This document shows, piece after piece, positions 42,079-64,000 of a stretch of 64,000 bases of DNA; within the stretch, counting starts at the first letter, position 1, and every line of letters begins with the position of its first letter. Source of the DNA: Methylomusa anaerophila (lineage in GTDB: Bacteria; Bacillota; Negativicutes; Sporomusales; Sporomusaceae); assembly GCF_003966895.1 (NCBI RefSeq), contig NZ_AP018449.1, forward strand, positions 4,419,501-4,483,500, in the 5' to 3' direction. The notes under the pieces were generated by a model. The model saw only the letters and a program-made list of their open reading frames with translations. It was not told the DNA's origin and made no database searches. The translations under genes and the position numbers were made by a program.

Positions 42079-45000
42079 TCAAGCGTCTTTATAATGCATG
42101 AACTGTTTGTTATGCTCCTTATCCATATTGGGATTCACTTTGAACCATGCCGCATACATAGTTGGTAAAACCAACAGCGTCAATAGAGTGGCACCAAATA
42201 AGCCGCCGGCAATGGCGACTGCCATCGGGCCCCAGAAGTTACTCAACGCCAAGGGAACCATCCCGAATATGGCCGCTGCTGCGGTGAGCATAATTGGACG
42301 AAATCTTAATATTGCCGAGTCGATGATGGCATCCCACGGCTTTTCTCCGGCTTTGATATGCTGCTCAATCTGGTCTATCAAGATAACTGAGTTCCGTATA
42401 ATCATGCCACTAAGCGCCAAAATACCAAGCTGAGATACGAAACCCATTGGCCGTTGAGTCAAGAGCATGGTTATACTAACTCCAATAATGCCAAGCGGCG
42501 CAGTCAACACTGTCAAAATCATGAGCGATATTTTCTGAAGCTGAAGTATTAGCAAGGTGAGAATAATGATAATCATGATTGGCACAGGCTGGAGCAGAAA
42601 TTCAATGGATGAACTACTTCTTTCGAGTGAACCTGCAATATCAATACTACAGCCTGAAGGTAAGCTTTTACGCATATCGTTGAGAGCTTCGTATATTTGC
42701 TTTGTTGCATCAACGCCGGTGATTCCCGGCACCACATCGGCCTGTACTGTTATCACCGGTTTAAGATTACGTCGCCAAATTAAGCCTTCTTCCGCCTCAT
42801 AGCTTATTTTGGCAATTTGATCCAATGGTACAAATCTTCCATCACCGATGTGAATGGGAAGATCTTTTACGTCCGTTAGATCTTTCCGGTTTTGATAGTC
42901 CATACGAAACACAATGTCAACCGTCTTATCTTTTGCCCGAAATTGTGCCACCGGCGCACCAGAAAGCTGAGTTTGCAGAGCAAATGCCAAAGTCTGACTG
43001 TTTATTCCAAGCATTCGTGCTTTGTTCTGATCAACATCCAAAAGCATGACTTTATTTTTTTCGTTCCAGTCAAAATTTATATTGAGGAACTTTGGATCGG
43101 CCGCCATAGCGTCACTGACTTGTCTGGCAATTGCTTTGACTTGTTCATGATCGTCTCCGGATACTCTGAGCATGACAGGATAAGGAGCATCAGGGCCGGT
43201 CTGTATTAATTTGACATGTCCACGTATCGCGGCAAATTTTTCAGCTAACAGTGTATTTATTCGCTGAGTCAATTCTACCCGCGTTTTTACATCTTTGGCC
43301 ACAATAATAAACTGGGCAAAATTGGTGGCCGGAAGTCTAGGTTCGAGAGTCAATACAAAACGGGGAGCGCCTTGGCCAACATAGTAGCTATAATTTTCAA
43401 TGTTGGGATCGCCATCAAGATACCCGGCAAATTTTTGAGCTTCCTGTTCAGTCGCTTGGAGGGAAGCCCCTTCCGGCAACGTCATTTCAACAATGAGTTC
43501 CGGACGAGTAGACAGAGGGAAAAATTCTTGTCTTACAAATTGCATTAAACCGATAGCTCCGAGAAAACACGCCATCGTTATACCAAGTACCAGTTTCTGA
43601 TGACACAAACACCAAGTAAGCACCTGTCGAAAAAGTCGGTAGAATTGGGAATCATATACGTTATGCCCCTGTTTTATTTCAGACTTCGTCTTAATCAGTT
43701 TATATCCCAGTACGGGAACTACCAAAATGGATACTAACCATGATATCAGCAAGGCAATGGTAACCACTGTAAAAATACTACCGGTAAAATCCGCAGTGTC
43801 GCCCTTAGCTAGCCATATAGGAATGAAGCCGGCACACGTAATAAGCGTTCCGGTCAGCATAGGAAAAGCAGTAGCTGTATAGGCATAACAGGCAGCTTTA
43901 AACCGGTCCCAGCCTTGCTCAATTTTTACGGACATCATTTCTATGGCAATAATAGCATCGTCTACCAATAATCCTAAGGCAATAATTAATGCTCCCAATG
44001 AAACCTTATGCAAATCCGTTCCTGTCAGTCTCATGCAGGCAAATGTGCCAACAATAACTAGCGGAATGCATAAGGCGACAACAAGTCCCGAACGCATGCC
44101 AAGGCTTAAAAAACTTACAGCAAGGACAATGATTACAGCCTCGCCCAGGGTCTTAATAAATTCGTTGATCGATTCCTCAACCACCTTAGGCTGGTTGGAC
44201 ACTTGGTTAATCGTTAAGCCAAGAGGCAGGTCCTTTTTAACCTGTTCCATAGTCTTTACCAGATCTTCGCCCAACGTTATGATATTACCGCCTTTTTCCA
44301 TCGAAACTGTAAGTCCGATTGCTGGCTGACCATTGAAATACATCTTAGGTCCGATTGGATCAACATAACTTCGCTCTATCTTGGCAATATCAGCTAGCCT
44401 GAAAGTACGGTCATTGGCACGAATAGGTAAGTTGCGGATATTTTCAATGTCTTCAAACATTCCGGTAACGCGTAAGTAAACATTATCAGCTGCTGTTTCG
44501 ATCATTCCGGAGGCATTCATAGCATTTTGCGTTTGTACCGTGTTTACGATTACATTGGGATCAATTCCAAGCTGCGCCAACTTGCTGCTTTCCATTTCAA
44601 TATAGATTTTTTCTGTTTGAACACCAATAAGATCAACCTTCCTAACATTTTTTACACCTAACAAAACCCGCCGTATTTTCTCTGCCCTTTCTCGCATTTC
44701 CTCATAGGTAAATCCGTCGGCAGTCAGTGCATAGATACTGCCAAAAACATCATCGAACCGGTCATTGAAGTATGGCCCGACAACGCCTTGGGGCAGCGTC
44801 TGATTGATATCATTTACCATGTTGCGTACTTCAAGCCAGGTCGCCCGGACATCCTTAGGATTTACGGTTTCCTTTAGAGTAGCATAGATTAAGGATTGCC
44901 CTGGCTGGGAAAAACTTCTGAGGTAGTCTAACCCCGGTGTATCCTGCAGTCTTTTTTCAATTTTATCGGTGACTTGTTCCTCTATCTGGCGAGCGCTGGC

Positions 45001-45168
45001 TCCTGGCCAAGCTACGGAAACAGTCATTGTGCGGATTACAAAATCCGGGTCCTCCATGCGTCCCAATTGAAAATAGGAAATACTGCCTATTAGCAGCGTG
45101 ACCACCATGAAATAATATACCAGTTGTTTATGATTAAGCGCCCATTCGGTTAAATTGATATGTTTCAT
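42079..45168 (-). CDS. RND-family efflux pump, inner-membrane protein
   Basis: The 1029-aa protein is a full-length RND transporter. The N-terminal membrane helix (residues about 14-32) is followed by the periplasmic porter start SVAWPGASARQIEEQVTDKI; the proton-relay Asp pair is in GLLVDDAIIAIEMM (near 405), with the usual second half after about residue 530. It sits in the inner membrane and pumps small molecules through an adaptor and an outer-membrane channel. Its start overlaps the adaptor stop by 4 nt (ATGA). No TolC-type gene is present here. Placed between the two PKS blocks, it is a plausible exporter or self-resistance pump for the polyketide (inference); the sequence does not fix the substrate. 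Confidence 0.93.
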   Translation of the reverse strand: MKHINLTEWALNHKQLVYYFMVVTLLIGSISYFQLGRMEDPDFVIRTMTVSVAWPGASARQIEEQVTDKIEKRLQDTPGLDYLRSFSQPGQSLIYATLKETVNPKDVRATWLEVRNMVNDINQTLPQGVVGPYFNDRFDDVFGSIYALTADGFTYEEMRERAEKIRRVLLGVKNVRKVDLIGVQTEKIYIEMESSKLAQLGIDPNVIVNTVQTQNAMNASGMIETAADNVYLRVTGMFEDIENIRNLPIRANDRTFRLADIAKIERSYVDPIGPKMYFNGQPAIGLTVSMEKGGNIITLGEDLVKTMEQVKKDLPLGLTINQVSNQPKVVEESINEFIKTLGEAVIIVLAVSFLSLGMRSGLVVALCIPLVIVGTFACMRLTGTDLHKVSLGALIIALGLLVDDAIIAIEMMSVKIEQGWDRFKAACYAYTATAFPMLTGTLITCAGFIPIWLAKGDTADFTGSIFTVVTIALLISWLVSILVVPVLGYKLIKTKSEIKQGHNVYDSQFYRLFRQVLTWCLCHQKLVLGITMACFLGAIGLMQFVRQEFFPLSTRPELIVEMTLPEGASLQATEQEAQKFAGYLDGDPNIENYSYYVGQGAPRFVLTLEPRLPATNFAQFIIVAKDVKTRVELTQRINTLLAEKFAAIRGHVKLIQTGPDAPYPVMLRVSGDDHEQVKAIARQVSDAMAADPKFLNINFDWNEKNKVMLLDVDQNKARMLGINSQTLAFALQTQLSGAPVAQFRAKDKTVDIVFRMDYQNRKDLTDVKDLPIHIGDGRFVPLDQIAKISYEAEEGLIWRRNLKPVITVQADVVPGITGVDATKQIYEALNDMRKSLPSGCSIDIAGSLERSSSSIEFLLQPVPIMIIIILTLLILQLQKISLMILTVLTAPLGIIGVSITMLLTQRPMGFVSQLGILALSGMIIRNSVILIDQIEQHIKAGEKPWDAIIDSAILRFRPIMLTAAAAIFGMVPLALSNFWGPMAVAIAGGLFGATLLTLLVLPTMYAAWFKVNPNMDKEHNKQFMHYKDA

Positions 45169-46268
45169 TGAACATCACCCACGATACGCACTCGTTGTCC
45201 TTCGCGCAACTTGTGCACTCCTGACGTAACGATAACATCTCCTGCCAGCAGTCCTTGAAGGACCTGAACTTTCCCGTCACCGAAAGTCCCGATTTTAATG
45301 GGTCTTAAGGTAACCGCTTCGTTCGTAATGACCCAAACGCCAGGTTGTTCCCCTGTCTGATAAATCGCCGCCAGTGGAATATATAACTTTTCTTGACTGT
45401 TGGGATCTTCAATCGTTACATTAGCAGTCATACCCAGCTTAATGTCCTGTGGAGGGTCCACCAAGCTGATACGGGTTTTATATGTACGGGATACCTTATC
45501 GGCCACAGGCGAAATTTCTCTAACTTTTCCGTCCAACACGGTATTCGGTAAAGCCCAAAACGCGACATGAATTTGTTGCGCATTACGAAGTTCTTTAACA
45601 CGATTTTCCGGAATATTGATTTCCACTTCCCGTTCACCGTCCTTAACGAGCGTAATAACGGACTGGCCGGCACTTACTATCTGGCCGATTTCAGCATTGA
45701 CGCTGGAAATTACTCCGGCACTATCTGCAAGAAGCACGCTGTAATTCAGTTGATTAGAGCCTTGGGCATATTGGGCCGAAGCCTGACGAAGAGCGGCTAC
45801 GGCAACATCATAAGCATTTTCATACTGCTCATACTGGGCCCGGCTGACAGCGTTCTGTTCGTATAACTGACGGTAGCGGTTGAGGTTACTTTCCGCAAGT
45901 CTTAATTGTGAGTCAGCAGAGTATACCTGAGCTGAATTAATATTCACAGTCTGTTGAATATCTTTAGGGTCAATTTTCATCAGAACATCACCACGGTTGA
46001 CTACACTACCCAGGTCCACATTGCGTTTAATAATCTTCCCACCAATCTGAAAACCCAACTGGCTTTCGAACCGTCCCCGTACCTCACCGGAATAGCCACT
46101 ATTTGCCTCATGCAAATCTTCTTTTACAACTTGTGTGCGCACTAACGGTATTTCTTCCGTCACAGTCTGTGTTTTAGAACAGCCAATAATAATCATACAT
46201 GTTAACAAAAACAGGCAAATATATGCTTTCGCTATGTTCTTTGATATTTTACCTCCGGATACTTTCAA
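45165..46268 (-). CDS. RND periplasmic adaptor lipoprotein (membrane fusion protein)
   Basis: A 367-aa adaptor with a signal peptide ending in IIIGC-S (lipobox Cys near residue 30), a barrel-sandwich lipoyl half (GSVVNRGDVLMKID), a coiled hairpin (about 85-150; SAQVYSADSQLRLAESNLN) and a beta-barrel/membrane-proximal part with IKLGMTANVTIE. It links the RND pump to an outer-membrane channel. The longest open frame begins at GTG 46277, but that codon lies inside the GAGGTG ribosome site; TTG at 46268 is better spaced. It is the first gene of the two-gene efflux operon and follows a terminator, so it should have its own promoter, which I cannot place with confidence. Confidence 0.88.
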   Translation of the reverse strand: MKVSGGKISKNIAKAYICLFLLTCMIIIGCSKTQTVTEEIPLVRTQVVKEDLHEANSGYSGEVRGRFESQLGFQIGGKIIKRNVDLGSVVNRGDVLMKIDPKDIQQTVNINSAQVYSADSQLRLAESNLNRYRQLYEQNAVSRAQYEQYENAYDVAVAALRQASAQYAQGSNQLNYSVLLADSAGVISSVNAEIGQIVSAGQSVITLVKDGEREVEINIPENRVKELRNAQQIHVAFWALPNTVLDGKVREISPVADKVSRTYKTRISLVDPPQDIKLGMTANVTIEDPNSQEKLYIPLAAIYQTGEQPGVWVITNEAVTLRPIKIGTFGDGKVQVLQGLLAGDVIVTSGVHKLREGQRVRIVGDVQ

Positions 46269-46330
46269 ACAAATCACCTCAGCAATGTATTTTTCATAAA
46301 CTTAGAGGATTTTTTCGTTTTTGAATGCGT

Positions 46331-46358
46331 AAAAAATGAACGTCCGGCTATGCCGGAC
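46331..46358 (-). terminator. Terminator after the activase-related pair
   Basis: On the minus strand the 7-bp stem GTCCGGC/GCCGGAC with a 3-nt loop is followed by GTTCATTTTTT. It is about 50 nt after the stop at 46410 and ends the line B PKS operon before the efflux genes. Confidence 0.85.
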
Positions 46359-46409
46359 ATCAAGATTTCGATATTAAGTTTATTACCTGTTACAGAGCGC
46401 AGGCCTTGT

Positions 46410-47768
46410 TCAAACCGCATTGTTTGCTTCCCGTAAACGTCTCGCTTGGACTGTCACGTTTTCTAATAGTCGATGGTGGTTTGTTGATAACCAGGGTCCT
46501 TCCAATTCCAGACCGACAAAAGGAATATCGTATCGATGGGCTAAAGCTCGAATGACAGCTTGCGCGTTTATTGAGTTTTGACAGGTAAATACTGCTACAT
46601 GGACTAATCCGTCGAAAACTCCCGTTTGCATCGTTTTTAAATACTTCCCTACCGGTATATCAGCTTCATTAAATATATTGGGGTTTATAAACTGGTGGCC
46701 ATCTTTCAGAAGACTTGCCAAAGATACATGTTTATCAAAAAGAAGACCCGATCCTTGAAGTGCTTTTCGAAACCGGTGATTCAAAAAATTAGCAAGATCT
46801 AAAGTCAGACGTGAGGACATGGCAAGTTTTAATTCCCGCAGGTTCAATTGGGAATTAAATAATGACATGATCAGCGATCCCCAATCCAAGTGTTGGTCTA
46901 AATTATCATATCCCCTCTTAAATCCGTAGCGCCTTGCGTATTCGGAAAAAATAGTCAGCAAAAATTCATGAAACTCCACAATCTTGGGAATAACCCCTTG
47001 TTGATAACAATATTCGTTTATAGGTTCCTTTATAAATGGCAAGACCCCCCCCCCAAATATCAAAATCTTAGGAGTCTCCTCCACCGTAGCTTTCAACGGA
47101 ATTTTCCTTATATTATTGGCCCATTCTTTTAAGGACCTCTCAATCGCCAATATTCCCTTATGAAAATTGGAGACTACTTTCATCATTTCTTTATTGAATA
47201 TTTTTAATGCTTCTTCCTTATTTAGCGCGAGGCATCTTAAAGTGCATTCTGCTTCATCGAATAAATCGCCCAGAATGATTGCACTTAGTACTTGTCTGCC
47301 AAACATCATTCCTTGCCCAAGGTAATTATTTTTTAAAGTAAGATTTACCGAATAAATAGCATTAGAGATTCCTAACCTTTCCGTAAGGACCTTCCAAACA
47401 TCAGGCCAAGCGCCACACTGGCAAGGGCCTTCCTGCTCAATCCCCCAATAGACCAATATATCATCCTTGTCATAATTTTCCATGATATCTGTATAGTATA
47501 TTCCTGCCAGGAAATTAAACGACAGGCATTCTCTGCCACTACTCAATTTTTTTACATTATGCAATATTTCATGGGTGTATGGTTTGCAAAGTCTGATACG
47601 CCAACCCTTTTTTTCATGGATGCTTTTAACAAAAGGGGTTGAATTATTTGTAAGCGGCCAGATAAATACCACCCTCCGGTCGTCAGTCTTAATTTTATTA
47701 CTGCAAGCATCAATAACATAGGTAAAATCCTCGGAAAAAGCAGCACTTTTAAAACTTTGCTCAATCAT
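46410..47768 (-). CDS. C-terminal partner of a split 2-hydroxyacyl-CoA dehydratase activase-related protein
   Basis: The 452-aa protein resembles the last third of the long (about 1400 aa) acyl-CoA dehydratase activase-related family, itself related to HgdB-type dehydratase subunits. Family-like marks are SGRECLSFNFLAG (near 78), QEGPCQCGAW (near 110), ILIFGGGVLPFIKEP (near 233) and an ending of the form IPFVGLELEG...RLLENVTVQARRL. Possible metal-ligand Cys residues are in SGREC and CQC. The start at 47768 (MIEQSFKS) has GGAGAG about 9 nt upstream; an open frame to 47954 would overlap the upstream gene by 161 nt without a ribosome site. It follows the activase gene by 25 nt. A run of ten G codes GGG in the GGGVLPF motif. 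The substrate is unknown. Confidence 0.7.
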   Translation of the reverse strand: MIEQSFKSAAFSEDFTYVIDACSNKIKTDDRRVVFIWPLTNNSTPFVKSIHEKKGWRIRLCKPYTHEILHNVKKLSSGRECLSFNFLAGIYYTDIMENYDKDDILVYWGIEQEGPCQCGAWPDVWKVLTERLGISNAIYSVNLTLKNNYLGQGMMFGRQVLSAIILGDLFDEAECTLRCLALNKEEALKIFNKEMMKVVSNFHKGILAIERSLKEWANNIRKIPLKATVEETPKILIFGGGVLPFIKEPINEYCYQQGVIPKIVEFHEFLLTIFSEYARRYGFKRGYDNLDQHLDWGSLIMSLFNSQLNLRELKLAMSSRLTLDLANFLNHRFRKALQGSGLLFDKHVSLASLLKDGHQFINPNIFNEADIPVGKYLKTMQTGVFDGLVHVAVFTCQNSINAQAVIRALAHRYDIPFVGLELEGPWLSTNHHRLLENVTVQARRLREANNAV

Positions 47769-47793
47769 TTTATTTCTCTCTCCAATCTGAATT

Positions 47794-50709
47794 TTAGCTG
47801 ACTCCAGCCATTTGCCGCTCTTTAAGTTCGACAATATCCAAAAAAGCACCAACACGGGTTTCAAAGCCGGCATGAGCAGTTTGTGAATCGATTTCCAAAT
47901 AGCAAAATATTTCGCCTGCCATTTCGCGGCGGAATATATGATACATACTGGCATCAGGTACGCAAGAAAAACAGGATACCATGCAAATATAAACGTTAGG
48001 GTGTTTTTTTACGTAAGCAACCGCATTTTCGATCTGTTGGGTAAAACGCCAAACATTACCGTGGTAATATCCTTTATTTTCTAATTGCGGCAGCATATCA
48101 ACGGGGATTACATTATATCCCCTGCTGGTTATTTTCCGCGGTAACGCCAAATTGGCTTCAGCGGAACCAAATATATAAGGTCTTCCAGCGAGTATTACCG
48201 TCGGCTCTGCAAGTATTTCGTGCAAATTTTCCCTACTAAATTGCATAAATTCCCTTTTGTAAGATTCATAGTGAGTAAACGCACGTTCACCAATTTTTAA
48301 AGCGTTTCTTTTATTGAACCCCAACTGTTCCCCCAACTTTTGGATCTGTTTAAGTGATGTTTCCTTAAGTTCATCGGAAAAACCGATCACGGGATGCAAT
48401 AGCCTGCCACTGTCAATATTAAAAGCAATGCGGATCAAATCCGGGATGACTGTCGCAGAAGGGCAAATATAGCTATGCAAGCTATAATCCGGGTTACCTC
48501 CGTCAACGACATGCGGTAAAAAGATATAATCGACACCTTGATTCAATAAATCATAAACTGCACCGTGTGCGATTTCACACGGATAGCAGATTGATCCTCT
48601 AGTTTTTGAATTTCCTTCTTTCGAAATTTTAGATAAAACGACATTAAAGCCCAATTCGTTGATTAGTTTGGCGTAAAAAGGGTAGAGTTCAAACGTACTT
48701 AAAGCTTGAGGAATGCCTATCGTGCCGCGAGGATGCAATAATGTTTCGGCTCCATACTTTTCAAACATCATTTGATTACGAATCACAGTTAAATCCTGGC
48801 CTTCATTCTTGAACTGCTTTTGCCTGTGCTTCACCTCATACTTGGAACAAAGCCCGCCAAAGGGGATTTCCTTGCCCCGGACTTTAATCTTCTTAATTTC
48901 GCATATATTTTCGCAAGCAGGGCATTTAAATGTTCCCTTGACTTCCATAGTACCTTTGAATAACTCTTTCAAGTCATAGGTTTTTGGCAAGAGATAACCT
49001 TCGTTGATCATATCTTGTGCCATTAGACAGCTACCGACACATCCCATTAACTCCGGGTATTTAGGTACAACTACTTTCCGTTGAGTTAAAGCCGCTATCG
49101 CTAATGCAACCGATTTGTTCAGAGCGACTCCACCTTGAAATAACAATTTGTCTCCTACTGCTCTCACACCGACTATACGTGAAATATAATTCCTGATAAT
49201 TGAGTAAACAAGGCCTGCGATAACGTCCTCCTGCGGCACTCCATGTTGCAAGGCATTTCGCAAATCAGTATTAATGAAAGCAGCACACCTTTCTCCGAAA
49301 CCGACTGGCTGAAGGCTACTCTCGGCCCTATTACTGATTTCGCTAACAGAAATTCCCATATCCACAGAAACTGACTCCTCAAGAAAGCTACCCGTTCCGG
49401 CAGAACAGCCGTCGTTCATTGCGTAGTCAACCGGGATTCCTTTTAAAAACGAAATAAACTTCGAATCCTGCCCGCCAATTTCAAACACAGTATCCACATC
49501 CGGCACTTCCATAACAGCGGCCCTGGCATGAGCTAAAATCTCATTGAAACTTGGACAGTTTTCAAAAAATACCGAAACAATTCCTCTGCCTGACCCTGTA
49601 ACCGCAATTTGAACAACATTGATTTCTTTGTCGTCAACCTGCTCAATCAATTTTTGAAGGCAATTCTTCACCGCCGTCACGGGATTTCCATGCGTCCGCA
49701 AATAGCAGCCTGCATCAACTGTTCCACGTGATTGATTAAAAAGAATTGCCTTAGTAGTAGTCGAGCCGGCGTCGATTCCCATAATATAATCAGCCCCTGC
49801 TATTATTTCCTGGGAATGACGGCCCATTGCCCTATAATCAAGTAGTTTTTCTGCTTCTCGTAAAGGATTCAAAATTCCATAGGGCTCTATGGCCTCTTTA
49901 AAACCGATGCTTGAATAGTAAACAGCTTCCTGGGGAGAGAGACCGGCAGCGAAAAGAGACGCTCCAAAAGCCTCAAAACAAGGACTTTCATCCAAAACTT
50001 TCAGCTCTGAATCCTTAAATAACTCGCCTAAGTGCTCAATAAATGGCTCATTTAATGTAAGTCCTCCTATAACAACAATAGACTTAGATTCCCATTGCGC
50101 CAATTCAACCATTTTATAAACTTTTTTAGCCAGATCATTAATAAGTGATTTGGCGATGTCTGAACGGCTGCATTCTCCTTTATTAAGTTTATGGGTGGCA
50201 TCCGATTTACAGTAAACGGAACAACGGGTAGCCAAGTCGACTAATTTCCCTTTACGGCTCTCCTGAATTCCGCTTTCTAATGTCAAATCCATCCTTTGGA
50301 ACTGTTGGACTATAAACTCTCCTGTTCCCGCAGCACATTTTGATGATGGAATGATATTTCGAATTCGCCCGTTTTTTAATGTGTAAATACTAAACACCTC
50401 TCCACCGAGTGAAAGTAAAATATCTGGCTTTAAAGCAAAATGCGCCAATGCTTTTTCTAAACATTCCGTTTCAGAACGGTACGGCAAATCAAGAACTTCC
50501 TTTGCAGCTTGACCGGTGACCACCATTTTGACCTTTTCTTCAGTAGAGTAGAGCTTAAAAATCTCTTGGACTTTTTCTTTCGGATTTCCTTCATGTCGTG
50601 TTATCCCCATAAAGTGTTTTCCCGAACTTGTCCTGCGGACCCATTTTACCGACACAGAACCTATCTCCAAACCCTCAAAGAAATTCTCTCTTGTAATATT
50701 TTCCATCAT
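47794..50709 (-). CDS. 2-hydroxyacyl-CoA dehydratase activase-like ATPase (two ASKHA domains + DUF2229)
   Basis: The 971-aa protein has two activase (BcrAD/BadFG, HgdC-like) domains. The first (about 10-260) is degenerate at the nucleotide site but keeps CAAGTGEF and RCSVYC. The second (about 310-560) is canonical: IMGIDAGSTTTKAI, EIGGQDSKF, NDGCSAGTGSF and FGERCAAF, whose two Cys bind the 4Fe-4S cluster shared by the dimer. A Cys-rich stretch (CPACENIC, about 600-635) and DUF2229 (ICYPCEIAHG, IFLPHV) follow, ending EIDSQTAHAGFETRVGAFLD. Known activases use ATP to push one electron at very low potential into a dehydratase or reductase. GGAGG precedes two adjacent ATGs (50709, 50706). It starts 16 nt after the PKS reductase gene. 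Together with the next gene (971+452) it matches the length of the usual single-chain protein. Confidence 0.85.
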   Translation of the reverse strand: MMENITRENFFEGLEIGSVSVKWVRRTSSGKHFMGITRHEGNPKEKVQEIFKLYSTEEKVKMVVTGQAAKEVLDLPYRSETECLEKALAHFALKPDILLSLGGEVFSIYTLKNGRIRNIIPSSKCAAGTGEFIVQQFQRMDLTLESGIQESRKGKLVDLATRCSVYCKSDATHKLNKGECSRSDIAKSLINDLAKKVYKMVELAQWESKSIVVIGGLTLNEPFIEHLGELFKDSELKVLDESPCFEAFGASLFAAGLSPQEAVYYSSIGFKEAIEPYGILNPLREAEKLLDYRAMGRHSQEIIAGADYIMGIDAGSTTTKAILFNQSRGTVDAGCYLRTHGNPVTAVKNCLQKLIEQVDDKEINVVQIAVTGSGRGIVSVFFENCPSFNEILAHARAAVMEVPDVDTVFEIGGQDSKFISFLKGIPVDYAMNDGCSAGTGSFLEESVSVDMGISVSEISNRAESSLQPVGFGERCAAFINTDLRNALQHGVPQEDVIAGLVYSIIRNYISRIVGVRAVGDKLLFQGGVALNKSVALAIAALTQRKVVVPKYPELMGCVGSCLMAQDMINEGYLLPKTYDLKELFKGTMEVKGTFKCPACENICEIKKIKVRGKEIPFGGLCSKYEVKHRQKQFKNEGQDLTVIRNQMMFEKYGAETLLHPRGTIGIPQALSTFELYPFYAKLINELGFNVVLSKISKEGNSKTRGSICYPCEIAHGAVYDLLNQGVDYIFLPHVVDGGNPDYSLHSYICPSATVIPDLIRIAFNIDSGRLLHPVIGFSDELKETSLKQIQKLGEQLGFNKRNALKIGERAFTHYESYKREFMQFSRENLHEILAEPTVILAGRPYIFGSAEANLALPRKITSRGYNVIPVDMLPQLENKGYYHGNVWRFTQQIENAVAYVKKHPNVYICMVSCFSCVPDASMYHIFRREMAGEIFCYLEIDSQTAHAGFETRVGAFLDIVELKERQMAGVS

Positions 50710-50725: not shown

Positions 50726-53700
50726 TCAGCAATACTGGGAAAAAGGACTGGTAGTATTGTTGCCAATTATTTTTTCAACAAAATCATAATTTGTAATATG
50801 CCAGTTCCAAAAAGTATTGGGACTAATACTATTTTCGAGATAACCAATCTTGATGCAATAATCTAAATAGGTCGCAATTAATTTTTCATCAATTTTGGGG
50901 CAATTTATCCCCCCTTGGGCCAATACTTCCGCAGTATAGGTGGTATCGGCGCATGAATTTCCACCTGCTGGTCTCATCGCAGGGTTAAACAACATCAAAT
51001 CTGTTGTAATGGAACGATAATGATTGCTTTCACTGCGTAAAAAGTTCATGTATTCTTCAATACTGACAAATCTTAGCGGATAACCCAACTTGCTAATGAT
51101 AGTGCCAATGTCTTTTAGCGTCGGATAGTCGGGATTTGACAAATGGTATGTTTGATACAAGTCCTTCAAGGATGTAGCAAGCCATACCATGCTCCGGCTA
51201 ACATAATCAATAGGCGTTATATCATAATACCAAGAACTATCTACAACCATTTCTAAATCAATTACTGTTTTTAAAAAATCATAGTATATGCCGGGAACTC
51301 CGGTGATATTAAAAGGATAATATCCCTTCTCGCTATCCCCCATAATATAACCGGACCGCATGATTGTCCATTTTAAACCCTGGGTGGAACGGACTATTTG
51401 TTCCGCTTCAAACTTTGACTTTGCATAGCCTAGGTTTTCGAATTTTTGTCCCAAATCAAAATCTTTTTCTTTAAAAGTTTCACCTGCTTTATACTGGCGA
51501 TCACCCATAACGGCAATGGTGGAGACGTGAATAAAATATTTTTGTTGGGTTCTTAATGTAAAGTTAATCATGTTTTTTGTCCCATCGACATTCACCTCTT
51601 TCACTTCACTATATAATCCGTGAAGACTTGTCTTTCCGGCACTATGAACAACCATGTCGATTATTCTGGTCAATTCTTCATATAGTGCCGGTTGCATTCC
51701 CAAAAGAGATTGAGTTATATCCCCCAAGACCGGGATTACGCGACTGTCAAATTCTGATAATAAGCTATGGTCCGGGTCATGAACCTCCAGCATAGTTTGA
51801 ATCCGGTGCCTTGCTTGTTCAAGATCTTTCGCCCTTACCAGACAATAGAGCATACTATCGGTCATTTCCAGGAAATCTCGAATCAGTCTCCCGCCCAAAA
51901 CACCGGTAACACCGTTTAATAGTATGTTTTTGGTCTTAAGTGCAATAGTTTTATCCGGAAATTTGGCAGCTTGATTTGTTATAGAATTTAATTTTTCTTC
52001 ATTGTTTTGACCTATTTCTTCCTCTTCGTTTCTCATTATCGTTTTATCAACGACACGACCGGCCCGGTCAATTTTTCCTATAATATACTCCGCCAGTTTT
52101 TTAACTGTATTTTGTTCAAAAAAGTCTGTAAGGGAGATTATATCGCCAAATTTTTTTTGCAGATCATTAATTATTCGCATTTGACTCAAGGAGTCGAGAC
52201 CATAGTCAGCAAAATCAGCTTCTATATTCAAATCATTTAGTTCCATGCCTAAATTTTGCGCAATAACCAACCTGATTAAGTCTTGAACTTCGCGAACACT
52301 GGTAGTAGTTTTCTTTTCCATAGCGTATTCCGTAACCGGTACACGCGGCAATGATTTTTCGTCATTCAGTGATCTTGCCATAACATCCGGCTTAAGTTTT
52401 TCATCCTTTTTTGTTTCGCCGGCAATCCAATAAACTTTCCGTTCAAATGGATATGTAGGTAGTGAAATGCGCCGCACCGCATTCCCATAATGAAGCTTTT
52501 CCCATGGTACTGTAATACCTTCAACCCATAAAGTGGCTAATCTTCTTAAATCGCGTTGCTGGAGCAGGCGGTCAAGGACTTCATCCCCGAACTGATCTTT
52601 AAATAGTAGTGATGGTGCTCCGGTTACGCATCCATAAAAGATGGTATCCTGATCAGATGAAGTCTTCGGGCTATTTAAAAATTTTGTTAAGCCATCAATA
52701 AAATCCGCCAAGTTCTTGCCGATAATGGCCATCCTTTCATCCATAGCTTCTCGACCGATTTGCAATGTGTACGCCATGTCTGCGAAATCCAGTTTTTCTT
52801 TTCCCTCTTCACCAATTACGCTGGAACTATTGCAAAAATTGAGTATTCGCCTTGCGTATTCATACAAGCAATCCTTTGTCCGGGCTGAAAGCACCATAAT
52901 TTGTGAAAAAGTGTGTTGAAGTTTATCTGCTTTTATTACACTTTTATACTCTTCCAGTATCATGTGAGCGTTTGCTCCCCCGGCGCCAAAAGAACTCATG
53001 GCAGCTCTTAGGGGAAGCTTTCTGGCAATGCCATTTTCAATTTTTTCTAAGGGACTCCATTCGGCCAACTCTTGCTGTACATAAAACGGTGTGTTAACAA
53101 AATCAATATTCGGATTAAGTTTCCCAGCGTGTAATGAGGGTGCAATTTGTTTATGTTTTAATTGCAGTAGTATTTTGGTTAGACCTGCAATCCCCGCGGC
53201 TGGTTCTAAGTGCCCAATATTGGATTTCACAGATCCGACTGCGCAATATTGCTTATCTTGGGTATATTTACTATAGGCCTTGGTTAAACCATTAATTTCA
53301 ATGGGATCACCCAGTGCTGTACCAGTACCGTGTGTCTCAATATAAGTAACCGTACCGGAGTCAATTTTAGCTTTTTCCAGGCACTCGGCTATAAGATCGG
53401 CTTGGGCATTCAAATTAGGGACTGTATATCCATTGGTCTTGCCGCCATGATTGACAGAAATGTTTTTAATAACAGCATAAATTTGATCTTGATCCACAAT
53501 AGCTTTTGCTAATGGTTTTAACAGAACAGCTCCCACACCCTCACCCGGCACGTACCCATCCCCGCCTTCGCCAAAGCTACGGCAACGACCGTCACCGGAC
53601 AAAAATCTGTTCAGACTTAACTGGACATATTTATTCGGATGTAATGAAAGGTTAACTCCGCCTGCCATCGCCATCTCGCAATCGCCACGGCAAATACTGT

Positions 53701-56700
53701 TGCAGGCTAAATAAATTGCTGTCAACGAAGATGAGCACATTGTATCTAAAGCAATACTCGGACCATGGAAATTGTAAAAATATGAAACGCGATTAGCAAT
53801 CGAGGCAAATGATTGAGCCGGCGGTACAAAATTTTCCCGGATGCCGTCTCCCAGGAGCTGATATTCGCCCCACATAACCCCCACAAACACGCCAACCTTA
53901 GCACTCCTTCCCATTCGGGTCCGGGTATAGCCGGCATCCTCCATAGTCTCCCATACAGTCTCTAAAAAAATCCTTTCCTGAGGATCAATCCCCTGGGCAT
54001 CTCGGGGGGCAATATTAAAAAGTAGTGGATCAAACTTATCAATATCATCCAAGAAACCGCCCCACTTGCTATAGGTCTTGCCGGGCTTGTTTTTATCTTC
54101 ATCAAAATATAAGCTATGGTCCCAACGGTCTTGGGGGATTTCCGTAATTGAGTCCTTGCCGTCCCGTAAGTTTTTCCAAAATTCCCGGATATTCATCGCC
54201 CCGGGATAGCGGCCGGAAACACCGATGATGGCAATATCCAAGGCCGTTTTTTCCTCCTGGGGTCCGATACGAAGGGATGCAAAACGGGAACGCCTGCGGC
54301 TCTTGACGTTTGATTTATAAGATCCCGCCACAACTGACAAATCTTCAGAAATTTTGGCAGTTGCGGCTGCTTTTTCTTGTTTAATGCCCAGTAATGCTAT
54401 CAGTTGGTCCTGATAGCGTTCAACAAAGTAGCCGGTTAGTTCTTGGATAGTTTGGTATTCAAAAAATAACGTTTTAGGCAATGATCCAAATGTTTTTTCC
54501 AATTGATCAGTCAATTGCATGACCATGACCGAATCTATCCCATATTTTTCCATAGGCGTATCCGCTTCGATGCGCTGTACCGGTAGCTTAATGACTGATG
54601 AAAGTAACATTTTCAAGTAATGGGTTGCTTTTTCCCGCAGTATATCTTCTCCAATAGCGGAAACTGTTTTGTTTTCTTCACTGCTAGAAAGCGCTTTTAC
54701 GGCTTCTATACCGGCTGCTTGTCCCAAAAGGGCCGCCTGAAGCCGTTGGCGGTCCCCCTCCACCACCATGACCTGGTCCTGGCCGGAGGCTAAGCTTTGA
54801 TACAAGGCGTAGATGCCGGTCTTGGTCCTCATGGCGATTATGCCCTTGTTTTGCATGATTGTCCTTTCAGTTTCCTGGTCTATATGCATGCCGCCTTCTT
54901 GCCACAGCGGCCAGTTGATTGAGAGCGTTTGACCCTGGCGTTGGTTTGCAGCCGCCAGAGTATTTCGATACTTAGCATAAGCGTCCATAAACGCATTGGC
55001 AGTGGCGTAGTCGGCCTGACCCACATTGCCCATTGCCCCGGCAAAAGAAGAAAACAGGATGAAGAAGTCAAGGGGTATGTCCTTGCTGGCCTGATCCAGA
55101 TTTATCATTCCGGTGACCTTGGGTGCCAGGACTTTTTCCCATTCCTCCTTGGTTTTCTTGATAAGAAAGTTGTCTTTAATCACTCCCGCGGCATGGATTA
55201 TGCCGTGAAGGCTCCCGAATTCCTCCCGGATATTCTGGATTAAGTCGGTAACCGCTTCCTTTTGGGTTACATCCATTTGCCGGTATTCTATCCTGGGGCC
55301 CATGGCCGCCAGTTCCTTCAATTGCTCTTGTTTGTCCTCCCTTAGCGGCGACCGGCCGGTAAGGATCAAAGTTGCATCTTTGACTTTATGCGCAATTTCT
55401 TTGGAAAAAATTAGTCCCAGACCGCCGGCGCCGCCGGTAATTAAATAGACCCCCCGCTCTTTCCAGGGAATTTTCATTGCTTCCCCGACAGTTTCCACTT
55501 CGCTCCAGCCCGCAACATACCGTTTGCCGTCCTGGTAGCGTATCCGGTTATCCAGGGAGTTTCGGCTATTGTCTTTTAGGTTCTCTATAATTTCTTCTGT
55601 ATCTTCACCTGCTTCCACTTCAATCAATTGCCCTATTAGTAAAGGGTTTTCCAATTGAGCTGTTTGCAGGAGTCCGGATAGTCCGGCGAAGAGTTGCTGT
55701 TTGTCCTGGGCGGAAACCACAACCTGGATCAGCACCTTGCCCTTAGGTTTACCTTTAAGAATGCTTTGGATTTCCTCAAAGGCCTGGATGGCATAGGCCC
55801 GGAACCGTTCCGCCAGGCCTTTCTCTTCGGATTGCAGGTTTAAGCAAAGTACTCCGTTCATACGACTTTCGATGCTTTCCCGGGAAATTCCACCTTGTTC
55901 ACAAAGCATCACCAACTGCCGGTAATAGTCAGGGGCTGTGGCTTCTTGGGGAATGGCCCGTTCCTGCCAGCAAGGGGTAAGCAGCAACGTTTCAAGAGCG
56001 GCCGGGACGCCTACCGCATCCATTTCGTCTGCCGGCACCCGCACTGAAAAGCCCTTCATCTTCACACATACATTCCCCTGTTCGTCACAGAGGTCGATAT
56101 CGAGTTTTCGCACCTTATCCCCGGTTTGACTGCCCTCGCTATACCGGACCAGCGCCCACATGACGGGAGTACATTTATTCAGGACTGTGAGTTCTTGCAG
56201 TGCGAAGGGTAGCGCCGGCTTGCGGGGCGCTATGCCGCCTGTATTACTGATATCCATCATTAAACCTATTGATGCCTGCAAGGCTGAATCCATCAAACTG
56301 GGATGGAGGATAAACCGGTCTTGCGTACCGGAGACAGATGAAGGTAAAGACAACTTAGCCAACACTTGATCATAACCCACATACACCTTCTCAATTCCTT
56401 GGTATGCCGGACCATAATCCATCGCCATGGTCTTAAAGGCCTCGTAACATTGAACGGACGAAAGGATCTTGCGGCTGCACTGAGCCTGCAAGGCCTGAAG
56501 GTCCAAGGCCGGGACTTCGTCAACCGCACTGGTCACAGCACTGCCCTGACTGTAAACTACAGTTTCTGCGTCAGCATCTTCTGACCGGCTATAGATTTCA
56601 TAGGCAACCTCTCCGCTGTCTTCCGGAAATAGGCCAATGTGTACCTGTACCGGTTGATCTGCTACAGCAATAGGTCGGGCCCAAATCACATTTTTAAGAC

Positions 56701-57019
56701 ATACCCGGGTCTGGTTCTCTTTCAAAGGCTCGGCTGCCTGTGCCACAGCTGCGCGGGCCATTTCCAGACAGGCCACTCCTGGCAATATTCGCTGTCCTCG
56801 CACTACATGATCCTTCAGGAAAAATTCCTGCCCTGTAAAATTTGAACTGTAGCGTTGCTCGGAAAGGTCGGAGGTGTTTTGCTGAAGCAGGGGATGAAGA
56901 AAATAAGACTTATCGGAAACAATTTTAGTATGAAATTGACGTATCAAATCTATCGCATCTGTTTTCGGTAGTCGTTCACTTTTTATCTCACCCAAAATAT
57001 ATTCTAGAAAATCCTTCAT
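50726..57019 (-). CDS. Trans-AT PKS, last protein of line B: DH-KR-ACP-KS-ACP-thioester reductase
   Basis: The 2097-aa protein starts with a docking helix (1-35) and goes straight into a DH (about 42-322; HVVRGQRILPG, HPSLMDSALQ), so its KS is on the preceding protein. KR (about 525-700; GGAGGLG, GQADYATAN) and ACP (YGIDSVMV, near 829) complete that module. The last module is KS (about 927-1360; [29 protein letters not shown]) and ACP (YGLDSLSQM, near 1609). The C-terminus (from about 1700) is an NAD(P)H-dependent thioester reductase with GVTGVLGG, the Ser/Thr of VSTIAVMG and YAKSK. It should release the chain as an aldehyde, or as an alcohol after a second reduction, instead of hydrolysing it. 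No AT and no C-terminal docking helix. GGGAGG lies 8 nt before ATG. Base composition looks more AT-rich from about 54.3 kb down to 50.7 kb. Confidence 0.95.
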   Translation of the reverse strand: MKDFLEYILGEIKSERLPKTDAIDLIRQFHTKIVSDKSYFLHPLLQQNTSDLSEQRYSSNFTGQEFFLKDHVVRGQRILPGVACLEMARAAVAQAAEPLKENQTRVCLKNVIWARPIAVADQPVQVHIGLFPEDSGEVAYEIYSRSEDADAETVVYSQGSAVTSAVDEVPALDLQALQAQCSRKILSSVQCYEAFKTMAMDYGPAYQGIEKVYVGYDQVLAKLSLPSSVSGTQDRFILHPSLMDSALQASIGLMMDISNTGGIAPRKPALPFALQELTVLNKCTPVMWALVRYSEGSQTGDKVRKLDIDLCDEQGNVCVKMKGFSVRVPADEMDAVGVPAALETLLLTPCWQERAIPQEATAPDYYRQLVMLCEQGGISRESIESRMNGVLCLNLQSEEKGLAERFRAYAIQAFEEIQSILKGKPKGKVLIQVVVSAQDKQQLFAGLSGLLQTAQLENPLLIGQLIEVEAGEDTEEIIENLKDNSRNSLDNRIRYQDGKRYVAGWSEVETVGEAMKIPWKERGVYLITGGAGGLGLIFSKEIAHKVKDATLILTGRSPLREDKQEQLKELAAMGPRIEYRQMDVTQKEAVTDLIQNIREEFGSLHGIIHAAGVIKDNFLIKKTKEEWEKVLAPKVTGMINLDQASKDIPLDFFILFSSFAGAMGNVGQADYATANAFMDAYAKYRNTLAAANQRQGQTLSINWPLWQEGGMHIDQETERTIMQNKGIIAMRTKTGIYALYQSLASGQDQVMVVEGDRQRLQAALLGQAAGIEAVKALSSSEENKTVSAIGEDILREKATHYLKMLLSSVIKLPVQRIEADTPMEKYGIDSVMVMQLTDQLEKTFGSLPKTLFFEYQTIQELTGYFVERYQDQLIALLGIKQEKAAATAKISEDLSVVAGSYKSNVKSRRRSRFASLRIGPQEEKTALDIAIIGVSGRYPGAMNIREFWKNLRDGKDSITEIPQDRWDHSLYFDEDKNKPGKTYSKWGGFLDDIDKFDPLLFNIAPRDAQGIDPQERIFLETVWETMEDAGYTRTRMGRSAKVGVFVGVMWGEYQLLGDGIRENFVPPAQSFASIANRVSYFYNFHGPSIALDTMCSSSLTAIYLACNSICRGDCEMAMAGGVNLSLHPNKYVQLSLNRFLSGDGRCRSFGEGGDGYVPGEGVGAVLLKPLAKAIVDQDQIYAVIKNISVNHGGKTNGYTVPNLNAQADLIAECLEKAKIDSGTVTYIETHGTGTALGDPIEINGLTKAYSKYTQDKQYCAVGSVKSNIGHLEPAAGIAGLTKILLQLKHKQIAPSLHAGKLNPNIDFVNTPFYVQQELAEWSPLEKIENGIARKLPLRAAMSSFGAGGANAHMILEEYKSVIKADKLQHTFSQIMVLSARTKDCLYEYARRILNFCNSSSVIGEEGKEKLDFADMAYTLQIGREAMDERMAIIGKNLADFIDGLTKFLNSPKTSSDQDTIFYGCVTGAPSLLFKDQFGDEVLDRLLQQRDLRRLATLWVEGITVPWEKLHYGNAVRRISLPTYPFERKVYWIAGETKKDEKLKPDVMARSLNDEKSLPRVPVTEYAMEKKTTTSVREVQDLIRLVIAQNLGMELNDLNIEADFADYGLDSLSQMRIINDLQKKFGDIISLTDFFEQNTVKKLAEYIIGKIDRAGRVVDKTIMRNEEEEIGQNNEEKLNSITNQAAKFPDKTIALKTKNILLNGVTGVLGGRLIRDFLEMTDSMLYCLVRAKDLEQARHRIQTMLEVHDPDHSLLSEFDSRVIPVLGDITQSLLGMQPALYEELTRIIDMVVHSAGKTSLHGLYSEVKEVNVDGTKNMINFTLRTQQKYFIHVSTIAVMGDRQYKAGETFKEKDFDLGQKFENLGYAKSKFEAEQIVRSTQGLKWTIMRSGYIMGDSEKGYYPFNITGVPGIYYDFLKTVIDLEMVVDSSWYYDITPIDYVSRSMVWLATSLKDLYQTYHLSNPDYPTLKDIGTIISKLGYPLRFVSIEEYMNFLRSESNHYRSITTDLMLFNPAMRPAGGNSCADTTYTAEVLAQGGINCPKIDEKLIATYLDYCIKIGYLENSISPNTFWNWHITNYDFVEKIIGNNTTSPFSQYC

Positions 57020-57066: not shown

Positions 57067-60000
57067 TTATATTGCAAACACATTTTTCGCCTTTTGAACG
57101 GCAACATCAATACTTATAATGTCATTCATTATTTCATCAATTAGTTTGTCATAAAACGTGACGTCAAATTGAACATTACTTTGAGGAGATAAACAAGTAT
57201 TCTCTTGTTGGGGGCGATCTTCAGACTTGGCGGGAAGAGTGGCGTCAAATAACCAATACCGTTCTTTGGCAAAAGGATAGGTAGGCATGCTGATGCGGCG
57301 CGGCTTGACGTCTCCGTACAGCCGGTTCCAGTCAACAATGAGGCCTTTGACCCAAAGGTCGATAAGCTTTGCATACTTTCCTTTGGTAATCCAGGCAGCG
57401 ACTGTTTTGGCCATATCTTCATCCGCGGCGAAAACATCCAGGGTTTCTTTATTGCGCTTTACCTGTCCCCGGTACACTTCCCCGCCGCCATCCCGGCCAT
57501 CGGCATAACTTTTCAGTTTTTCCGCAAGTTCCCTGACGGATCCCGCCAATACCGCCAGGCGCTCTTCCATGGCCTCCCGGCCTACCTGGAAGGTGTAAGC
57601 CACATCGGCTAAATCATTATCCGTGAATTGCCGCTCCTCAATCGCCGCCAGCAATTGCCGCACCTGCTCCCGCAGCCGTTCTTCATTCTTTGCCGACAGC
57701 ACGATAATGGCCGGATTCCCCGCGTTGACCGCAATCGGCGGCCGGGCCGGGTCCCGGGCTATATATTCTTCGATAACGATGTGAGCGTTTGCCCCGCCCG
57801 CCCCAAAGGACGAGATGCCGGCAATCCGCGGATATTCTTTGCTTTCGCCGCCTTTTTCAACCACCGGCCGCTTCCATTCCGCCAGTTCCTGCTGGACCAC
57901 GAAAGGAGTATTATTAAAATCAATGTTGGGATTTAAGGTCTGAGAATGGAATGAAGGCGCCAGTTGCTGATACTTTAACTGCAGCAGTATTTTCGTTACC
58001 CCGGCAATGCCGGCTGCGCTCTCGCAATGGCCGATGTTGGACTTGGCCGAGCCGATGGCGCAGAACTGCTTGTCCTGGGTGTATGCCTGGAAGGTTTTTG
58101 TCAGGCCGGTGATTTCAATGGGGTCCCCCAGGGAAGTGCCGGTGCCGTGGGCCTCAATATAACTGATGGTCCGGGGATCAATCCCGGCTTCTTGAAAGGC
58201 CCGGCCAATGACACTGGCCTGGGCATTGGGATTGGGAACGGTGTAGCCGTTGGTTTTTCCCCCATGATTGAGGGCGGTCCCTTTGATGATGCCATAGATG
58301 TGGTCGCCGTCGGCAACGGCTTTCGCCAGCGGTTTTAGGAGCACGGCTCCCACGCCTTCTCCCGGCACATAGCCGTCGCCGCCCTGGCCGAAGCTTTCGC
58401 AGCGGCCTTTGCTGGAGGCGAACTTGCCCTGGCTAAGCATCAAGTATTTGTTGGGATGAATGGAAACATTGACGCCGCCCGCAATCGCCGCTTCGCAGTT
58501 ACCCCGCTGCAGGCTCTGACAGGCCAGATGGATGGCGGTCAGAGAAGAGGAGCACATGGTATCCACCGCCAGGCTGGGTCCATGGAAGTTGCAGAAATAG
58601 GATACCCGGTTGGCGATGGACGACGGGTTGCCGGACGCGGCGACCGGCCGGCCCTGGATTTGTTCCTGGGCGCCGTAGAGCTGGTACTCTTCGTACATCA
58701 CCCCGACATATACCCCCACATTGCCCCCCAGGCCAAAGTCCTGACGCAGGCCCAGGGTTTCCCGGGTATAGCCCGCGTCCTCCAGGGTTTCATAGACACA
58801 CTGCAGGAACAACCGCTCCTGGGGATCCATGATTTGGGCTTCCCGCGGTGAAATATTGAAAAACAGCGGATCGAACTGATCCACGCCGTTAATAAAGCCG
58901 CCCCACTTGCTGTAGGCTTTGCCGGGCTTATTTTTATCGGCGTCAAAGTACAGGCTGTGGTCCCAGCGCTCTTTAGGGATTTCGGTGATGCAGTCCTTGC
59001 CGTCCCGCAGGTTTTGCCAGAATTGCCGGATATTATCCGCCTGGGGATAGCGGCCGGCGACCCCAATGACGGCAATGTCCAAGGCCGCTGTTTCTTCCCG
59101 CTTCTCCGGCCGCAGCGAGGCAAAGCGCAGACGCCGGCGGCTGCCGGCGGTCAGTTCCTCGGCCTCGGCCTCGGTCACAGCCGCTAAATTCCGGTAACTG
59201 CCGGCGGGCGCCGCCGCTATATCCTCAATTCCCACTAATTCTGTCAGTTGGCCGCGATAGTTTTCCAGGAAATAGCCGGTTAAATCTTTAATGTTTTGGT
59301 ATTCAAAAAATAATGTTTTCGGCAATAAACCGAATATCTTTTCCAATTGATTGGTCAATTGCATGACCATCATGGAATCAATTCCGTATTTCTCCAGCGG
59401 CGCAGCCGCTTCAATGCGGTGCGCCGGCAGCTTAATGGCGGTGGCAAGCAGTCTTTTGAAGTAATTTACGGCTTTTTCCTGGAATGAATTTTGGTCAATG
59501 GCTGGTACGGCTTTGTTTTCTTCTCTGGTATGAGGGGCATTGGGCGCGTTTATGGCTGCCGTTCCCGTCTGTTCCCCGAGGAATGCCGCCCGCAGCCGCT
59601 TAAGTTCCCCTTCCATCACCAGGACCTGATCCTGGCCGGAGGCCAGGCCCTGATACAGGGCCCGGATGCCGGTTGCTGTCCCCATGGCGACCATACCGGT
59701 GGTTTGCCGCAGCATCTTTTCGGTTTCCGCATCCACACGCATCCCGCCCTCCTGCCACAACGGCCAGTTGACCGACAGGGTTTGACCGCGGCGTTGCTGT
59801 GAGGCCACCAGCGTATTGCGATATCTGGCATAGGCGTCCATAAAGGCGTTGGCGGCTGCATAGTCGGCCTGGCCCGCATTGCCGAAAACTCCCGTTCCGG
59901 ATGAAAAGAGGATGAAAAAGTCCAGCGGCTGATGCTGGCTGGCCTGATCCAGATGCACCAGGCCGGTGACCTTGGGCGCCAGCACTTCCAAGACTTCAGC

Positions 60001-63000: not shown

Positions 63001-64000
63001 AAAGCTGATGTGAAAATCCGGCGTCAGAATGGTATTGACGCCGCCGGCGATCGCCATCTCGCAGCTGCCGTTTTCCAGGGCGCTCACCGCCCGGTGAATG
63101 GCTACCAGGGAACTGGAACAGGCGGTTTCAATGGGTTCGCTGGGTCCGTGAATATTGAGGAAATAGCTCATCCGGTTCGGTCCCACCGAAGGCACCGTGC
63201 CGGTGGATGTGTAACCTTCAATCCCGTCGGCCTGGGAAACCAAGACCCGATAGTCGCTGCTCATTGTTCCCGTAAAAATACCGGTCTTCGTTCCCGCCAG
63301 GCTTCGCGCCGCATAACCGGCATCTTCCATCGCCTTCCAAACATAGGTCATCAACAGCCGCTGCTGCGGGTCCATGAGCTGGGCTTCCCGGGGGGAAATG
63401 CCGAAGAATAACGGATCGAACTCCGCGACGCCGTCAATAAAACCGCCCCATTTGACGTTGGTTTTATTTGCCTCGGTTGCCGGATCGCCGTAATACTCCC
63501 GCCAATCCCAGCGGTCTGGGGGAATTTCCATGATGCAATCCCGGCCGGCAACGAGATTTTCCCAGAATTCGTCCAGGTCTCCGGCCAGCGGGAATTTTCC
63601 ACTCATGCCGATAATCGCTATGGGTTCGGAAACGGTTGCAGCCGGTTGTGCTGCGGCTAACGCCACCCTGCCGGCCAAACGGGAACGCTGTTTCTTACCG
63701 GCCGGCTTTTCTATTTCCTTTGCTTCCTCTTCTCCGGCCGGTACCGTGAATTGGACGGCTAGTACAGTCTGATATTCTTCTGTCAGATATTTGGCAAAAC
63801 TATTGAGATTCGAATGTTCAAAAAATATGGTGGGTGCCAGCTCAAGTTTATATTCTTCGTTAATTCGATTGGAAAATTCAGTAAAGGTGATCGAATCAAA
63901 TCCATACTCCTTCAGTTCGGTGTCGACATCAATACTTTCGGGCTTAACTTTGAGTAATTTGGCTACAGTTTGCATCAGGGCAGCTTCTATTTTGTTCAAT
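57067..64000 (-). CDS. Trans-AT PKS of line B, 3' part: ...ACP-KS-DH-KR-ACP-KS
   Basis: At least 2310 aa; the gene continues past the right edge. Positions are from the edge: ACP ([10 protein letters not shown], about 30), KS (115-540; [19 protein letters not shown]), DH (750-1025; [21 protein letters not shown]), KR (about 1235-1410; [26 protein letters not shown]), ACP (YGIDSMMV, about 1541), KS (1640-2076; [19 protein letters not shown]). After the KS tail it ends in a docking helix ([20 protein letters not shown]) with no DH; the DH begins the next protein, so a module is split between KS and DH. No AT. The edge is inside the ACP linker: in the 6993-aa PKS the same sequence is internal, so the TTG at the edge is not a start. 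The first 2.2 kb is nearly identical to part of line A. Confidence 0.94.
61804..64000 (-). repeat. Near-identical KS-ACP block, copy C (line B)
   Basis: This copy lies in a different assembly line, about 28.8 kb from copy B. Its ends follow copy B (for example 63739-63900 versus 34981-35140), while the middle (62295-62330, 63210-63260) follows copies A and D. It continues past the window edge. Confidence 0.8.

Follow-up and report, generated by a model that had tools for sequence, protein, structure and literature searches.

A putative two-subunit activase/DUF2229 enzyme encoded behind the thioester-reductase end of a trans-AT polyketide synthase in Methylomusa anaerophila and its relatives

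Polyketide synthase (PKS) tailoring is usually seen as NAD(P)H, flavin, SAM or P450 chemistry. The 2-hydroxyacyl-CoA dehydratases have small 2-hydroxyacyl-CoA esters as substrates. In the benzoyl-CoA reductase component BzdO, the open-site catalytic [4Fe-4S] cluster is held by Cys95, Cys128 and Cys380, and the double cubane [8Fe-9S] of BzdN uses six cysteines (36, 73, 100, 263, 293 and 327) (PMC11971306). Proteins of the activase/DUF2229 family were found throughout the class studied here, in very many genomes, as fused chains of 1400-1450 aa beside non-PKS genes, which agrees with the initial annotation of the present locus, where a single protein of about 1400 aa was given as the usual form of the family. 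Each of the four PKS-linked clusters described below has two genes in place of such a single chain.

The window, that is, the whole stretch of DNA analysed here, comprises 64,000 nucleotides (positions 4,419,501 to 4,483,500 of contig NZ_AP018449.1) of Methylomusa anaerophila, whose genome is a single contig of 4.78 Mb and which belongs to the same family as Sporomusa. The features of the locus are as follows:

50726..57019, minus strand: trans-AT PKS, 2097 aa, with the order DH-KR-ACP-KS-ACP-thioester reductase (Pfam, TIGR01746)
47794..50709, minus strand: gene 1, 971 aa, with two actin-like activase ATPase domains, a four-cysteine motif and a DUF2229 core half
49900..50685, minus strand: first ATPase domain of gene 1, aa ~9-270, with Cys125 and Cys163 kept
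49012..49788, minus strand: second ATPase domain of gene 1, aa 308-566 (PF01869, TIGR00241), with DxGS...GGQD motifs and with Cys435 and Cys475 kept
48847..48924, minus strand: motif CX2CX3CX17C of gene 1 (Cys596, 599, 603, 621), invariant in 15/15 family members
47962..48723, minus strand: DUF2229 core half of gene 1 with invariant Cys708, 749 and 916 (PF09989, E 4e-43; family alignment)
47778..47783, minus strand: ribosome-binding site GGAGAG of gene 2, read from the sequence, 9 nt 5' of the ATG
46410..47768, minus strand: gene 2, 452 aa, predicted second core half (family alignment and Foldseek)
46339..46361, minus strand: likely intrinsic terminator 3' of gene 2, a 10-pair stem with a T-rich tail
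45165..46277, minus strand: membrane-fusion (HlyD/RND adaptor) protein, with an orthologue after the pair in both Sporomusa clusters (70-72% identical)
42079..45168, minus strand: RND efflux pump, 1029 aa; both Sporomusa clusters have an orthologue (73% identical over 1024 aa) after the pair

The PKS and the two genes are all on the minus strand, separated by 16 nt between the PKS and gene 1 and by 25 nt between gene 1 and gene 2. These recomputed coordinates match the layout of the initial annotation, which had placed the genes at the same distances behind a reductase PKS and ahead of a terminator. The terminator is graded as likely: the T-tailed 10-pair stem at 46361-46339 is the strongest among 11 terminator-like sites of the region, where about 9 weaker ones are expected by chance. 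Because a GGAGAG ribosome site of its own precedes the ATG of gene 2 by 9 nt, the start of this gene is taken as real and not as a frameshift; an earlier ATG, giving a 514-aa ORF, would overlap gene 1 in a different frame. A frameshifted or otherwise broken gene was ruled out by this separate start, by conservation of the split in four genomes and by the retention of 14 of 14 cysteines.

A Pfam/NCBIfam domain search detected no AT domain in the 2097-aa PKS, and a discrete acyltransferase, accompanied by a PfaD-type enoyl reductase, is encoded upstream of the PKS, beyond the window; the PKS therefore belongs to a trans-AT line. The KS domains of line A (18448-39459) and one KS of line B (57067-63999) are 94-99% identical, pointing to a recent module duplication or gene conversion between both lines. 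Just right of the window, between PKS genes of line B, a segment (L012:3112-10062) encodes a ThiS-like carrier, a ThiF/MoeB-like adenylyltransferase, an enolase-superfamily enzyme, an SDR and a HAD phosphatase, together with two proteins (310 and 527 aa) that gave no Pfam or NCBIfam match. This gene set suggests sulfur insertion into the polyketide product.

Gene 1 was assigned by Pfam to BcrAD_BadFG, in two stretches (E 1e-49), and to DUF2229 (E 4e-43), and this order of two BcrAD_BadFG-type ATPase domains followed by DUF2229 is that of the activase/DUF2229 large-protein family. The second ATPase domain matched PDB entries 4eht, 1hux, 9gai and 7yyl both by sequence and by fold; these structures are activators of 2-hydroxyacyl-CoA dehydratase, benzoyl-CoA reductase and DCCP. 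The CX2CX3CX17C motif of gene 1 likely forms an extra [4Fe-4S] site.

Gene 2 gave no match in Pfam, NCBIfam or the PDB by sequence. It aligns with the C-terminal third of the fused relatives, with three invariant cysteines (81, 116 and 396) retained, and a profile of its orthologues matched the C-terminal part of fused proteins of 1420-1450 aa (E down to about 1e-23) as well as the C-termini of separate proteins of about 370 aa. The predicted structure (mean pLDDT 78, pTM 0.82) yielded eleven Foldseek matches in the PDB with probability 1.00, all of them to DCCP, BzdNO, MbdON or 2-hydroxyisocaproyl-CoA dehydratase (HadBC). The best was 7yyl (DCCP, E 2.7e-5), and 3o3n (dehydratase) was also matched; TM-scores were moderate at about 0.4, a loose fit over the whole length. 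Since its predicted fold matches only the double-cubane/benzoyl-CoA reductase/2-hydroxyacyl-CoA dehydratase family, gene 2 is not an activase, and the model predicts it to be the second half of a catalytic core of dehydratase/reductase type. The original description named two activase domains, DUF2229 and a separate C-terminal partner, all of which were recovered, but the label "activase pair" is imprecise: both activase domains belong to gene 1, and gene 2 would be a core subunit.

To locate conserved cysteines, 15 family members were aligned and each cysteine was scored among the sequences spanning its position. Fourteen cysteines were family-invariant, and all are present in the window pair: 125/163 and 435/475 in the ATPase lobes, 596/599/603/621 at the extra site, 708/749/916 in DUF2229 and 81/116/396 in gene 2. 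Because all 14 are kept across genes 1 and 2, the enzyme appears complete and not broken; alignment and structural model together predict that genes 1 and 2 specify the two subunits of a single enzyme.

We searched 380 genomes of the class and, with profiles, 398 genomes of the phylum. Gene 2 orthologues were found in four of the 380: those of Methylomusa anaerophila, Sporomusa ovata DSM 2662 (G298), Sporomusa sp. KB1 (G300) and a genome from another family (G080). The four span three genera and two families, two of them being close relatives. Gene 1 orthologues occur in the same four genomes, with 75-77% identity to the window protein (59-65% for gene 2), and the next relatives, which are fused, fall to 36-39%. 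The PKS thioester reductase is likewise found in these four of 380 genomes, with 68-72% identity over the matched part, its sole other match below 1e-40 being 29% identical. In each of the four clusters the pair lies directly behind an orthologous KS-ACP-thioester reductase PKS end. Co-occurrence with trans-AT PKS genes had been proposed at the outset as a check on the pair, and the four orthologous pairs all adjoin PKS genes rather than lying mostly beside unrelated genes. All that the phylum-wide profile search returned besides the M. anaerophila orthologue were fused proteins and short core subunits, and a plasmid search gave no match.

The surroundings of the pair vary. In both Sporomusa genomes it is followed by a Nudix gene and then by the adaptor and RND pump (70-74% identical to those of the window); G080 has the Nudix gene after the pair but lacks the pump, so the common core of the clusters consists of the PKS end and the pair. 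The gap between PKS and gene 1 in Sporomusa is about 160 nt and contains inverted repeats, which makes co-transcription of the two less certain there. In Sporomusa sp. KB1 (L018/L028), gene 2 is broken by an in-frame stop or frameshift, representing either a draft error or a pseudogene. The Nudix gene, present after gene 2 in three of the four clusters (L016:493-1350, L017:391-1215, L018:289-1119), encodes a NudC-type hydrolase that is 81% identical between families. NudC as a required part found no support: the window locus lacks it, and the best match elsewhere in the M. anaerophila genome is 44% identical. A polA-fpg-coaE region is found near the PKS cluster in both M. anaerophila (about 56 kb away; L014:4229-10400) and G080 (L032:10380-17054), hinting at a shared insertion neighbourhood.

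Because the pair and the PKS-thioester reductase end share the same four of 380 genomes and are adjacent in all of them, we tie the enzyme to this end of the trans-AT PKS. With moderate confidence, drawing on sequence, structural modelling and comparative genomics, we propose that the pair is a dedicated ATP-driven radical reductase or dehydratase acting on the conserved end of the polyketide, with the following putative substrate and reaction. Electrons from a ferredoxin-type donor would be driven one at a time by ATP hydrolysis, by way of a bridging cluster, onto open-site [4Fe-4S] clusters in the core. There the activated carbonyl at the polyketide end, present as an ACP thioester or as the aldehyde that the reductase sets free, would be reduced to a ketyl-type radical, which could undergo oxygen loss or a net reduction beyond the reach of NAD(P)H-dependent PKS domains. 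In clusters with the neighbouring RND pump, that pump may then export the product.

The PKS itself was compared among the clusters. Relative to the window PKS, the last KS of the other three is 77-80% identical and the thioester reductase 66-69% identical. In Sporomusa the PKS is compact, with three KS domains, two DH-KR modules and then a final KS-ACP-thioester reductase; the Sporomusa ovata cluster has one PKS of 4237 aa and two discrete ATs along with the pair and the RND pump. Its last two KS domains are orthologues of the last two of the window (83% and 80% identical), and its first KS has no match above 52% in the window cluster. As the upstream modules differ and the last two KS are kept, the pair is associated with the terminal part of the line. 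The G080 cluster ends at a contig boundary, so that the comparison covers the PKS end without upstream modules; the last KS of its PKS (L033:3637-8709) carries QGTGT instead of HGTGT, as in non-elongating KS, and the motif is intact in the other three clusters. With the catalytic histidine lost in G080, the end product may differ between clusters.

This comparison bears on whether the pair instead makes or activates a precursor, such as a starter acyl thioester formed by 2-hydroxyacyl dehydration, and leaves the finished chain alone. The small 2-hydroxyacyl-CoA substrates of the known family dehydratases would accord with such a role, but the starter-side modules vary between clusters while the terminal KS-ACP-thioester reductase stays with the pair, which is moreover encoded behind the last PKS gene. 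We therefore judge a precursor role to be clearly improbable.

Whether the enzyme might be a reductase and not a dehydratase is a separate matter. A Birch-like, double-bond or keto reduction of the released or ACP-bound polyketide, in the manner of benzoyl-CoA reductase, would agree with the common fold family, as DCCP, MbdON and BzdNO are among the top Foldseek matches, and with the conjugated, partly unreduced chains that these PKS ends are predicted to make (DH-KR modules, then an unreduced KS-ACP module). Moreover, neither an ER domain nor a trans-ER was detected in the Sporomusa PKS or in the two discrete ATs examined. The window cluster, however, already has a PfaD-type enoyl reductase, and the pair has 3+3 invariant cysteines as opposed to the 6+3 of benzoyl-CoA reductases. 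The spacing of Cys81/116/396 in gene 2 is similar to that of the BzdO cluster ligands, and the six-cysteine double-cubane feature found no support, since each core half of the pair has three invariant cysteines. The 3+3 pattern therefore favours a dehydratase-type site over a double-cubane reductase site; cysteine counts and spacing suggest a dehydratase-type cluster pattern, and an enzyme acting only as a reductase seems possible but rather doubtful.

The proposal of an ATP-driven enzyme dedicated to the polyketide end was also considered against the family tree. The four PKS-linked gene 1 proteins form one clade (support 100/100) on a stem of 1.28 changes per site, separate from a fused clade (fusB), from the canonical fused clade and from an NRPS-linked protein of 1401 aa. 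Within the gene 1 tree, the G080 protein is nested inside Sporomusaceae sequences (100/95), a placement that would fit the PKS end and the pair having been transferred as a single cassette. The clade has its own second-shell residues beside two cluster cysteines (PC-Q for C-R and FTC for PFGC), changes that would be consistent with a new substrate. It is conceivable that the pair is a general redox enzyme carried along with the PKS cassette and working elsewhere in metabolism, as the NudC-type gene also rides along in three of the four clusters without an obvious role and the fused relatives lie beside non-PKS genes in very many genomes of the class. Such a passenger is very unlikely, however, given that a housekeeping-type fused copy is also present in the same genomes as the pair, that no member of the PKS-linked clade was found apart from the PKS and that all catalytic cysteines were kept over the long independent branch.

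Split pairs were also found elsewhere, at L089:2095-6317 (974 and 419 aa), L090:4353-8556 (977 and 418 aa) and L091:6211-10382 (972 and 411 aa), with the genes 13-38 nt apart. They come from another family of the class (f9), fall on the canonical side of the tree and lie beside unrelated genes. Because they branch elsewhere, splitting arose independently, and the split alone was ruled out as proof of a new system. The initial proposal that an ATP-driven low-potential enzyme works in a PKS pathway finds partial support: four of four orthologous pairs lie behind the thioester-reductase PKS end, and the split is not diagnostic.

The M. anaerophila genome has a second assembly-line setting for the family, a fused member of 1401 aa encoded within an NRPS/PKS operon (L010:5946-10151 = C1:107945-112150), to which it belongs because its gene overlaps its neighbours. 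The operon (L010/L100) encodes a KS-containing PKS, an NRPS with condensation, A and TE domains, a separate TE, a hexapeptide acyltransferase, two ABC exporters, a methyltransferase and a likely TonB-type receptor.

In the open literature, limited to open papers, we found no description of such a pair in a PKS cluster, as the initial annotation had also held, and nothing relevant on this enzyme family in PKS clusters or on a Sporomusa polyketide of this type. We suggest, tentatively and at somewhat less than even confidence, that the pair represents a tailoring-enzyme class not described before, an ATP-powered two-subunit iron-sulfur radical enzyme with which strict anaerobes would modify a polyketide at its carbonyl end, and that the homologue in the NRPS operon reflects recruitment of the family more than once. 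If so, anaerobes would have, in an ATP-driven enzyme able to reach benzoyl-CoA reduction potentials, a means of bond reduction or deoxygenation of polyketides that to our knowledge no described PKS domain provides, and the large activase/DUF2229 family of proteins without known function, present in most genomes of the class, would gain its first pathway context. Sporomusa ovata is a cultured acetogen with a compact cluster, so the claim is directly testable.

The pair can finally be set beside the known systems. The fused activase/DUF2229 proteins of COG1924 type, which include a 1415-aa paralogue (L009) and the 1437-1453-aa fusB proteins (G068, G289-G292), have the same domain order and the 14 cysteines, and gene 1 is 36-39% identical to fusB and about 27-31% identical to canonical members; they differ in being one chain, in having no PKS beside them in the neighbourhoods read and in forming separate clades with full support. 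With the 2-hydroxyacyl-CoA dehydratases (HgdAB/HadBC with HgdC/HadI), the pair shares an actin-like activator with bridging-cluster cysteines and would share two core halves, each putative half having three invariant cysteines; a fold match was found for gene 2 and an activator match for gene 1. It is unlike them in carrying both activator lobes and one core half on a single chain, in its extra four-cysteine site and in its PKS context, and core sequence identity to HgdAB/HadBC is very low (about 10%). Class I benzoyl-CoA reductases (BzdNOPQ, MbdONPQ) share the folds of gene 2 and of the ATPase domains, but the pair lacks the six-cysteine site of BzdN, and no aromatic degradation genes lie nearby. 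DCCP/DCCP-R provides the best Foldseek match of gene 2 and the same ATP-driven design, and differs by a double-cubane [8Fe-9S] in each monomer, compared with three invariant cysteines per core half in the pair. The fused 1401-aa protein is likewise embedded in an assembly-line operon and shares the domain layout and the cysteines, whereas it is a single chain on a very long separate branch (2.06) and its setting is an NRPS with metallophore-like neighbours.
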